40,629 nucleotides of DNA from Acidobacteriota bacterium. Its GTDB lineage: Bacteria > Acidobacteriota > Holophagae > Holophagales > Holophagaceae. The notes beneath the pieces are model-generated. The model saw only the letters and a program-made list of their open reading frames with translations. It had not been told where the DNA came from and ran no database searches. Position numbers and translations under genes: made by a program. Shown piece after piece: positions 4,218 to 31,039 of this stretch. The DNA lies in contig JAKAMQ010000005.1 in the NCBI GenBank assembly GCA_021812805.1, forward strand, positions 1 through 40,629, in the 5' to 3' direction. How positions within the stretch are numbered: the stretch's first letter is position 1; each line of letters opens with the position of its first letter.

Positions 4218-4328
4218 ATGCCCGAAGACCACCTCTACCTGATGGACCCCTTCACGTTCATTCTTTCGGTATCCGCTGCGCGGATACGCGTGACCTCGCC
4301 GTTCTGCACGGGAGCATTGCATGGCTGA
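4218..4328 (+). pseudogene. Duplicated head of polA, decayed, readable as a 36-codon upstream ORF
   Basis: Bases 4218-4268 align without gaps to the first 51 bases of polA (4321-4371), with 40 of 51 identical by my count. The peptide begins MPEDHLYLMDPFTFIL against MAEERLYLIDTFAFIF in polA. After codon 17 the similarity ends at a palindrome (4269-4287). The frame stays open and stops at a TGA inside the polA start region (ATGGCTGA). It has its own weak ribosome site (GAGG). It is either a relic of a tandem duplication or insertion event, or a translated leader coupled to polA. Confidence 0.7.
4269..4287. repeat. Short palindrome, family R2, copy 1
   Basis: GTATCCGC at 4269-4276 and GCGGATAC at 4280-4287 form a perfect 8-bp stem with a 3-base loop. 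The same stem with a different loop occurs at 31019-31037. This copy begins exactly where the duplicated polA head stops resembling polA, which suggests it marks the insertion junction. Confidence 0.65.
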
Positions 4329-7131
4329 GGAACGCCTCTACCTGATTGACACCTTCGCGTTCATTTTTCGGGCCTACTACGCCAACCCCCGACTGAAGAA
4401 CGGGGCCGCGTACACCTTCACCCGTCTGGTGCTCCAGCTGCTGGAGAAGCACAAGCCGACGCACATCGCCTGTGTCTTCGATACGCCGGAACCCACGTTC
4501 CGGCACCAGATCTACCCGGACTACAAGGCCAACCGGGCCGAGATGCCCGAGGATCTGCGACCCCAGATCCCGATGATCCGGCAGCTGGTGGAGGCCCTGG
4601 GCATCCCCATCGTGGAGCTGCACGGCTACGAGGCGGACGACGTCATGGCCACCCTGGCGCGTGAGGCCGCTGGCCAGGGGCTGGCCTCGGTGATCGTGAG
4701 TCCGGACAAGGATCTTCTCCAGCTCGTGGATGACGCGCGGGGCATCCAGGTGCTCAACACCAAGGAGGGCGAGGTCTGGCACGACCGTGCGGGGGTGCGG
4801 GAACGCATGGGGGTCTGGCCGGAACAGATCGTGGATTTCCTCAGCCTGGTGGGGGATGCCTCGGACAACGTGAAGGGCGTGCCGGGCATCGGTGAAAAGG
4901 GTGCGGCCCAGCTGCTGGAGAAGCATGGAAGCCTGGCGGCCGTGCTGGCCGCCCGGGCCGACCTCAAGCCGAAGCAGCGCGAAGGGCTGGAGGCGGCCGC
5001 GGATCCAGATTCCGGCTGGCTGGAGCTCACTCGGCGGCTGGTGACAGTGGTGACCGACCTCGCCCTGCCGCTGCATCCCGGGGATCTGGCCTATCCCGGC
5101 GTGGACGAGCAGCGGGCCCGCGCCACCTTCAAGGAACTGGGCTTCCAGACGCTCACCAAGGAGTTCACGCAGAGCGCCGCGCAGGCCGGCTCCGCACGCA
5201 GGTACCAGGCCGCGACCAGTCTCCTGGATCTGGAGGAGGCCATCGCTGCCTGCCGGGCCACGGGGCGCTTCGGCCTGGACACGGAAACCACGAGTGTCGA
5301 GGCGACCCGGGGACACCTGGTGGGTCTGAGCCTGGCCTGGAACCCGAACGAAGGACTCTACGTGCCTTTGGCGCACCTGAAACCCCCGACTGCCGATACG
5401 GTGGGGGCCCTGCCGGGGCTGCTGCCGGACAGCGGACTGCCGGACGCCCTGCTGGACCTGCGTGGGGATCCGGAGGCCTTCTTCGCGGAGCTTGCGCCCC
5501 ACCTGGATCCCCGCAATGTGCCCTTCGCGCAGGCCCGGCGGCTGCTGGCCCCCCTGTTCGCCGATGCCTCCGTGGCGAAATGCGGCCAGAACCTGAAGTA
5601 CGACCTCCAGGTGCTGGCTCGCCACGCCCTGCCGGTGCGGGGTCTGGCCGACGACAGCATGGTGCTGAGCTTCCTGCTGGAGAGCGGCGTCCGGCACAAC
5701 CTGGACGATCTCTCCGTCCGCCATCTGGATGTGAAGCCCATCGCCTTCGAGGAGGTGGTGGGGAAGGGGAAGGCCCAGAAGCGCTTCGACGAGGCCGAGT
5801 TCGAACAGGCCGTGCAGTATGCTGCCGAGGATGCGGACCTGGCCCTGCAACTCTGCGACACGTTGCGGAAGGGCCTCGTGGATGACCGGCTGGGGCGCCT
5901 CTATGCCGAGGTGGACCTGCCGCTGGTGGAGGTGCTGGCGGCGCTGGAGAGTCACGGGGTACGGCTCGATCTGACGGTCCTCTCCGACCTTGCCGTGCGC
6001 ATGCACGCGGAACGCAAACGCGCCGAGGCGCGGGTGCTGGAGCTGGCCGGAGAGCCCTTCAATCTCAACAGCCCCAGCCAGCTCGGCACGATCCTCTTCG
6101 AGAAGCTGAAGCTGCCCGTCATCAAGTACACGGGCAAGACGAAGGCCCCCAGTACGGATGAGGAGACGCTGGAGGAGCTGGCCAGACGGCACGATGCGGA
6201 GATCGCCCGGGAGCTGCTACGGCACCGCCAGATGGTCAAGCTGCTGGGCACCTACGTGGAGGCGCTCCCCCAGCTGGTGAACCCCGTCACGGGCCGGGTG
6301 CACACCAAGCTGCACCAGGCCGTGGTGGCCTCTGGCCGCCTGGCCTCCAACGATCCGAATCTCCAGAACATCCCCATCCGCACGGAAGAAGGCCGGGCCA
6401 TCCGCGGCGCCTTCGTGCCGGAACCGGGATGGGCGCTGCTGGATGCGGACTACAGCCAGATCGAGCTGCGGGTGGTGGCGGCCCTGGCCCGGGATCCCGT
6501 GCTGCTGGGGGCCTTCGAGGCCGGGGAGGACATCCACCGCCGCACGGCCTCCGAGGTCTACAACATCCCCATGGCGGAGGTCACGCCGGAGCAGCGCAGC
6601 GCCTCCAAGGCCGTCAATTTCGGCCTGCTCTACGGGCAGGGCGCCTTCGCCCTCGCCGCCAACATCGGGGTGAGCCAGAAGGAGGCGAAGGCCTTCATCG
6701 AGCGCTACTTCGAGCGCATGCCGAAGGTGGCCGGCTGGATCGAGGCGACCAAGGCCCGGGCCGTCGAGGAGGGGCTGGTCCGCACCCACTGGGGCCGCAT
6801 CCGCCGCATCCCCGAGCTGCAGAGCGCCGATAAGCGGTTCCAGGCGGCGGGTCTCCGGGAGGCCGTGAACACGGTGGTGCAGGGCACCGCGGCGGATCTC
6901 ATGCGCCGGGCCATGGTGCGCCTGCACCGGGCCTTCGAAGCCGAAGGCCTGCGGGCCCGCCTGCTGCTCCAGGTCCACGACGAACTGCTGGTGGAAGCCC
7001 CGCCGGCGGAGTTGGAACGCGCCTCGGCGCTCCTGAAGGAGGCCATGGAAGGGGCCGACGATCTGGAGCCCATGGGCGTGAGACTGGTGGCCGAAGTCCG
7101 CAGTGGCGCCAGCTGGCTGGCCTGCAAGTGA
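4321..7131 (+). CDS. polA: DNA polymerase I
   Basis: A full-length 936-residue DNA polymerase I for gap filling, Okazaki fragment processing and excision repair. Residues 1 to about 290 form the 5' nuclease (VFDTPEPTFR, YEADDVMATL, SPDKDLLQL). The 3'-5' exonuclease looks active: Asp320 and Glu322 in LDTET, then CGQNLKYDL, then YAAEDADLAL. The polymerase domain has motif A with Asp710 (DADYSQIELR), motif B (RSASKAVNFGLLYG) and motif C with Asp887 (QVHDEL). The start is supported by GGGAG seven bases upstream and by N-terminal homology. The gene is preceded by a degenerate copy of its own first 51 bases, and the stop of that upstream ORF overlaps this start codon. Confidence 0.97.
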   Translation: MAEERLYLIDTFAFIFRAYYANPRLKNGAAYTFTRLVLQLLEKHKPTHIACVFDTPEPTFRHQIYPDYKANRAEMPEDLRPQIPMIRQLVEALGIPIVELHGYEADDVMATLAREAAGQGLASVIVSPDKDLLQLVDDARGIQVLNTKEGEVWHDRAGVRERMGVWPEQIVDFLSLVGDASDNVKGVPGIGEKGAAQLLEKHGSLAAVLAARADLKPKQREGLEAAADPDSGWLELTRRLVTVVTDLALPLHPGDLAYPGVDEQRARATFKELGFQTLTKEFTQSAAQAGSARRYQAATSLLDLEEAIAACRATGRFGLDTETTSVEATRGHLVGLSLAWNPNEGLYVPLAHLKPPTADTVGALPGLLPDSGLPDALLDLRGDPEAFFAELAPHLDPRNVPFAQARRLLAPLFADASVAKCGQNLKYDLQVLARHALPVRGLADDSMVLSFLLESGVRHNLDDLSVRHLDVKPIAFEEVVGKGKAQKRFDEAEFEQAVQYAAEDADLALQLCDTLRKGLVDDRLGRLYAEVDLPLVEVLAALESHGVRLDLTVLSDLAVRMHAERKRAEARVLELAGEPFNLNSPSQLGTILFEKLKLPVIKYTGKTKAPSTDEETLEELARRHDAEIARELLRHRQMVKLLGTYVEALPQLVNPVTGRVHTKLHQAVVASGRLASNDPNLQNIPIRTEEGRAIRGAFVPEPGWALLDADYSQIELRVVAALARDPVLLGAFEAGEDIHRRTASEVYNIPMAEVTPEQRSASKAVNFGLLYGQGAFALAANIGVSQKEAKAFIERYFERMPKVAGWIEATKARAVEEGLVRTHWGRIRRIPELQSADKRFQAAGLREAVNTVVQGTAADLMRRAMVRLHRAFEAEGLRARLLLQVHDELLVEAPPAELERASALLKEAMEGADDLEPMGVRLVAEVRSGASWLACK

Positions 7132-30449: not shown

Positions 30450-30482
30450 ATGAGCACGCAACAGAAGCGAGGCGCTGAATGA
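30450..30482 (+). other. Possible 10-codon ORF overlapping the carrier-protein start
   Basis: ATG AGC ACG CAA CAG AAG CGA GGC GCT GAA TGA runs into the next start codon, overlapping as AATGA. It could couple translation between accC and the carrier gene; it may equally be chance. Confidence 0.25.
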
Positions 30483-31006
30483 AACGAACCCTGACGCTCG
30501 GCAAGGACTCGCACGAGGTGGAACTCCTCCACCAGGATGGGGCGCTGACCCTCGTCTGGGAGGGCAAGCCCCATCCCATTGATATCCGCGAAGTGGAGCC
30601 CGGCTGCTATTCCATCCTCATGGAGGGGCGTTCTGTGGAGGTGCTGCTGGATCCCGGCAAGTCACCGGATCTCGACAGCCACGCCTTCCGGGCCCTGGTT
30701 TCCGGCGGCATCTATGAGTTCTCCCTGGCGGATCCCCGGCGGGCCCTCCTGGCCGGTGGCGGGGTGGGCGCCGGGGCAGGTGGCACGCTGACCTCCCCCA
30801 TGCCGGGCAAGGTGGTCAAGCTGCTTGTGGCCGCCGGTGAGGCTGTCCAGGAAGGCCAGACCCTCCTCATCCTCGAAGCCATGAAAATGCAGAACGAGTA
30901 CAAGAGCCCCTCCGCGGGGACCGTATTGAAGCTGTACGTCCAGGAGGGGAGCACGGTCGAGACCGCTTCGCCGATGGTGGAACTGACGGCGACCGAGGCA
31001 AGCTAG
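30479..31006 (+). CDS. Biotin carboxyl carrier protein of an acyl-CoA carboxylase
   Basis: A 175-residue carrier. The C-terminal biotinyl domain (about residues 103-172) has TSPMPGKVVKLLV and the biotin attachment motif EAMKM with Lys136. The N-terminal 90 residues (LTLGKDSHEVELL, PIDIREVEPGCYSILMEGRS) resemble the BT linker domain that joins the biotin carboxylase to the carboxyltransferase in propionyl/methylcrotonyl-CoA carboxylases. A glycine/alanine linker separates the two. With accC 39 bases upstream it forms a split alpha chain of an acyl-CoA carboxylase; the beta subunit must lie elsewhere. A palindrome follows the stop. Confidence 0.9.
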   Translation: MKRTLTLGKDSHEVELLHQDGALTLVWEGKPHPIDIREVEPGCYSILMEGRSVEVLLDPGKSPDLDSHAFRALVSGGIYEFSLADPRRALLAGGGVGAGAGGTLTSPMPGKVVKLLVAAGEAVQEGQTLLILEAMKMQNEYKSPSAGTVLKLYVQEGSTVETASPMVELTATEAS

Positions 31007-31016
31007 CGGGGTGTCC

Positions 31017-31039
31017 GCGTATCCGCGAAGCGGATACGC
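31017..31039. repeat. Short palindrome, family R2, copy 2
   Basis: GCGTATCCGC (31017-31026) and GCGGATACGC (31030-31039) form a perfect 10-bp stem with a GAA loop. The inner 8 bp are identical to the palindrome at 4269-4287. It lies ten bases after the biotin carrier gene and may act as a terminator. Confidence 0.7.

Follow-up and report, generated by a model that had tools for sequence, protein, structure and literature searches.

A dispersed hairpin family and duplicated gene ends in polA and other genes of Geothrix and related Holophagaceae

The window, a stretch of 40,629 nt from a Geothrix-like member of the Holophagaceae (Acidobacteriota), contains a duplicated polA head that belongs to a pattern found across the family, in Geothrix and other Holophagaceae: a short hairpin separates the intact gene from a truncated copy of one of its ends. 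An earlier, sequence-only reading had treated the repeat as a single odd duplication; in a genus sample of 47 genomes and a class sample of 18 genera we found instead an architecture of fixed geometry, repeated in many genes and many species. Insertions into essential genes are expected to be lethal, and this tiny element appears to escape lethality by duplicating the gene end that it enters, in polA, uppS, rpsT and other genes across the family.

The polA repeat and the hairpin family

The sequence-only reading proved correct on the repeat itself: positions 4218–4268 are identical to the polA head (4321–4371), 103 bp apart, in 40 of 51 bases, and a repeat search of the window returned this pair with 82% identity over 50 nt at a spacing of 103. 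Only 8 of 806,680 comparisons of 51-mers within the window, at offsets of 60–200, were as similar, and the polA repeat is possibly itself among the eight. The likeness is limited to the coding head, starting at an ATG and stopping at the hairpin (Table 1); as had been proposed, the break coincides with a palindrome (GTATCCGC-TGC-GCGGATAC, 4269–4287), which has a relative at 31019–31037. Five copies of this palindrome occur in the window at up to three mismatches versus 0.19 expected by chance, and the window's own genome contains only three perfect copies of its core. The 36-codon upstream frame is indeed open and, with support from relatives, corresponds to a duplicated polA head; the possibility that relatives have no homology to polA upstream of the gene was looked at and is not what they show. 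The stop of this frame, previously placed over the polA start codon, is actually in codons 2–3, giving an overlap of 8 nt between both reading frames. The polA product has the full set of expected Pfam domains, and no known RNA family was found in the window.

Table 1. Features of the polA locus and of the hairpin relative in the window
Feature	Position	Strand	Remarks
Truncated polA-head copy (X)	4218–4264	+	Read from native-position ATG at 4218; 40/51 identity to 4321–4371
28-bp bulged hairpin TTCGGTATCCGCTGCGCGGATACGCGTG	4265–4292	+	Member of the CTCGGTATCnnCnnnGnnGATACGCGAG family; arm covariation
ACCTC, probable right boundary of the ~33-bp element	4293–4297	+	Consensus ACctC right of class A hairpins
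Spacer (S), hairpin to polA start	4293–4320	+	28 nt; Shine-Dalgarno-like GGGAG at 4310–4314
36-codon upstream ORF MPEDHLYLMDPFTFILSVSAARIRVTSPFCTGALHG	4218–4328	+	Open frame; stop at 4326–4328 (TGA) inside polA codons 2–3
polA-head copy joined to the intact gene (X')	4321–4367	+	Unit 4265–4367, 103 bp
polA, DNA polymerase I, 936 aa	4321–7131	+	Pfam DNA_pol_A, 5_3_exonuc_N
Decayed hairpin relative (palindrome 31019–31037)	31017–31039	-	Just 3' of the stop of a biotin-carrier gene (30479–31006)

Besides polA, the window's own genome contains three further units or traces: one at uppS (L295), one at rpsT (L262) and the decayed hairpin at 31019, where a second copy of the biotin-carrier tail is no longer left. 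Biotin-carrier genes from relatives (L044, L049, L156) have intact hairpins between two copies of the tail, broken at the MKM biotin motif. The truncated tails in L044 and L156 are still coding-like, with few amino-acid differences and no start codon serving them, for which gene conversion and hidden translation are the alternatives.

The pattern CTCGGTATCnnCnnnGnnGATACGCGAG, or near forms of it, was present in every one of the 47 genus genomes and in 8 of the 18 genera of the class sample, among which none was seen outside Holophagaceae; the reversed pattern, used as a control, had 0 matches. Copy number is low, from a few to about 26 per genome, and relatives include empty sites, single units and tandem arrays of two to six copies. 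One gene end (L039) carries six hairpin units in tandem, spaced by 68–71 bp. Among 120 distinct copies, 91% of arm pairs are Watson-Crick, versus 78% when the arms are re-dealt, and C-G/G-C stem swaps are seen at the same locus; template-switching correction of palindromes could also be a source of this covariation.

Hairpins can be separated into those with a flank duplication (class A, about 30 sequence clusters or loci), which are flanked by YTT on the left and ACCTC on the right, and those without it (class B), which have the right tail ACRAACTGAWATCT and are often found inside MITE-like foldback repeats. The YTT-like left flank is common to both classes. At L337–L344 and L328–L336, class B hairpins are central in MITE-like foldback repeats (ACCACCAAGACGCCAAG...CTTGGTGTCTTGGTGGT). 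Genomes G028 and G080 carry almost identical copies, and these are probably a recently expanded repeat family.

Unit geometry, host genes and occupancy

The left flank of the hairpin was repeated downstream (score of at least 16) in 76 of 168 elements, versus 18 of 504 random sites. The hairpin lies between the truncated copy of the gene end (X), flush with its CTCGG side, and the intact gene, whose body is almost always to the right of the hairpin, an asymmetry for which a symmetric target duplication would not by itself account. In the great majority of cases, the copy that belongs to the intact gene (X') has its end 72–79 bp past the hairpin, and units measure 103–107 bp whatever the gene, though X ranges from 18 to about 75 bp; exceptional units are of 42, 69, 152, 157, 170, 178 and 215 bp. 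We do not claim that duplication lengths follow multiples of 36 bp, a rule from which lengths of about 124 and 137 bp depart.

Host genes, named by motif except for polA (Pfam), carry units at either end. Gene-start hosts are polA, uppS, folP, rdgB and mannose-phosphate guanylyltransferase-like, carbamate kinase, DUF502-like and cydB-like genes, while hosts at the 3' end comprise rpsT, thiC, biotin-carrier genes and others; several of these genes are essential. In rpsT, the duplication (61–73 nt) takes in the tail of the gene, non-coding sequence and the terminator, with a gap of only 2–13 nt between the hairpin and the copy. Empty sites, which carry no palindrome, were found for rpsT (single-copy in L240, L243, L245 and L247), uppS (L206, L210, L224, L226 and L227) and a KKK-tail gene. 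None of the units examined was a fully identical, very recent insertion. In L077 (5844), a 105-bp unit is in frame with a gene for a membrane protein, to which it possibly adds a 35-residue repeat.

We scored 29 polA loci from the genus, of which 13 had units (one to three, of 103 bp each) and 16 were empty. All occupied loci share the exact break point as well as the unit length of 103 bp, including a locus from another genus (L322); likewise, the 28-nt spacer showed no length change in 16 units of Geothrix relatives or in L322. The state of the unit on the polA tree needs five changes, a distribution that fits an old insertion followed by clean losses through recombination between the heads, perhaps with some regain. 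The sequence GCCAGACTGGGGGC is conserved directly 5' of the native polA ATG in relatives (e.g., L016 and L026), which suggests that, in species lacking the unit, the promoter lies near the start and the polA message is leaderless.

Stop-start overlap in gene-start units

The passage of ribosomes from the upstream frame to polA, proposed for the window, is well supported by comparison. Head loci were scored from named gene starts (20 loci, 11 genes): read on through the hairpin, the truncated head's frame reaches its stop between −4 and +8 relative to the true start at 18 loci, whereas this occurred for the other two frames in 1 of 40 cases. In all nine polA units scored for stop position, the stop coincides with the true start or shortly precedes it. 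The same was true for uppS, where the stop falls within −11 to +1 of the start in 24 of 24 units (two with decayed hairpins); 18 of these have an ATGA-type overlap, and in the other six the stop precedes the start by 10–11 bases, which would be expected were loss of the frame to require a substitute for the overlap. This placement points to selection on coupled translation but does not prove that translation occurs. The constant frame of the hairpin was rejected as the main proof of translation and carries less weight, given the codon-phase bias of YTT-like sites, about 60% of which follow codon position 2 in these GC-rich genes in any case. At gene tails, no consistent coupled start codon was found, and translational coupling was rejected there.

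Conservation of the overlap across large divergence and despite frame changes, together with the fixed spacer length, the stem covariation and the essential nature of several targets, could also indicate that head-hairpin units are a selected regulatory leader, whose hairpin and coupled ORF tune translation of core genes and for which the duplication was only the means of construction. We consider this unlikely: many relatives lack the units, with the five state changes on the polA tree; the same units occur at gene tails, with no coupled start; the target genes have no common pathway; and the polA leader RNA folds no better than shuffles (z −0.82).

Origin of the units and comparison with known systems

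On average, the spacers at gene starts do not resemble the native upstream sequence (mean z 0.12), and they were rejected as simple decayed copies of it, although rpsT and folP do fit a decayed duplication. This lack of similarity, the scattered occurrence on the polA tree and the inner N-terminus MWAELTS, common to folP from four species and unlike the native head, would agree with ready-made cassettes of hairpin, spacer and foreign head that spread by homologous recombination, the spacer being a foreign upstream region. Nevertheless, such cassettes leave unexplained the origin of each gene-specific unit and the constant unit length, and the inner and outer folP heads still align loosely by eye (W..L..PLFIG), making this a quite improbable explanation. 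Simple tandem duplication, or slippage during replication, at a palindrome already in place, without a mobile element, is already disfavored and highly improbable: palindromes do provoke template switching and there are tandem copies of the unit, but the same 28-bp sequence is found at many unrelated sites and inside MITE-like repeats, and empty sites have no palindrome.

The best account, in which we have moderate confidence, is the insertion of a hairpin with a long target duplication, later homogenized by recombination and kept harmless by coupled translation. An element of ~33 bp (CTCGGTATC..GATACGCGAG plus about ACCTC), presumably moved by an enzyme, would insert after a YTT-like site in the first codons of polA, and the insertion itself would duplicate ~70 bp of the target, leaving the truncated head, the hairpin, the spacer and the intact polA. 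Because the duplication would extend past the gene end, polA would stay whole under a new start. The truncated head would be translated from the old start and through the hairpin, and since its frame stops on top of the new start, translation of polA in the cell would proceed by coupling or re-initiation. Recombination between head copies could then homogenize them, add tandem units or cleanly delete the unit. Only inserts close to a gene end, with the gene restored by the duplication, would survive, and coupling would then keep them harmless. As the spacers at gene starts have no average similarity to the native upstream sequence, we infer the full duplication there from the constant unit length and from rpsT; the constant length would reflect a duplication of ~70 bp whose non-coding part diverged or was replaced by recombination.

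We tentatively suggest that this is a previously undescribed integration reaction, placing a hairpin of ~33 bp after a YTT-like site with a ruler-set duplication of ~70 bp, by a selfish element residing in the ends of essential genes, with the host gene rescued by the duplication and by coupling. We know of no bacterial element with a target duplication as long and constant, and found no description in the literature on long bacterial target duplications or on Geothrix repeats. If the insertion itself makes the ~70-bp duplication, it would imply an as yet undescribed integrase that has its own ruler; translation of the coupled upstream ORFs, if it occurs, would make them natural replicas to study re-initiation and gene conversion between repeated gene ends. 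The search for mobilizing enzymes in the 47 genomes of the genus covered Y1 transposases and Cas1, and neither provided a candidate: a RAYT-driven REP and a Cas1-like integration were both rejected, as Y1 transposases are absent from most genomes and Cas1 is present in only 5 of 47, including that of the window (G000:C72:2310–3149).

The suggestion that the palindrome is a mobile REP-like unit holds in the wide sense, in that the family consists of dispersed, imperfect palindromes that fall in the range of 20–40 bp and occur in many copies, though at low numbers per genome, and not for classical REPs, considering also that there are just three perfect copies of the core in the window's genome. 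REPs with RAYT are likewise short, often imperfect dispersed palindromes (PMC2817692, PMC3733652). Classical REPs are extragenic and IS200/IS605 transposition occurs without larger target duplications (PMC2817692), while some Rickettsia palindromic elements (RPEs) are CGTC repeats (PMC3733652). The hairpin family differs from REPs with RAYT in that no constant GTAG or CGTC tag was found in the flanks of class A or class B, and in the absence of Y1 transposases from 42 of the 47 genomes (0 in the window's genome; found in 5). RPEs are also palindromes located within reading frames whose gene remains usable, and they lengthen the host protein in frame; in the hairpin family, by contrast, the gene end is duplicated and the protein kept, with stops near the true start in 18 of 20 loci and the unit from L077 as the one possible in-frame case. 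MITEs are non-autonomous dispersed inverted repeats, as here, and class B copies lie inside a MITE-like foldback repeat. However, class A has no terminal inverted repeats beyond the hairpin, and the short, fixed target duplications of MITEs (2–14 bp) contrast with the duplication of about 70 bp in class A (61–73 nt in rpsT, with units of 103–107 bp elsewhere). Islands and prophages that restore the gene end they enter likewise target a conserved gene-end motif and leave a truncated copy on the far side, but the hairpin insert is of about 33 bp, with no integrase or cargo. Finally, and only as an analogy, CRISPR spacer integration by Cas1-Cas2 also has a target duplication set by a ruler and an insert of about 30 bp, whereas the hairpin family has a fixed insert sequence, a duplication about twice as long and Cas1 in 5 of 47 genomes.
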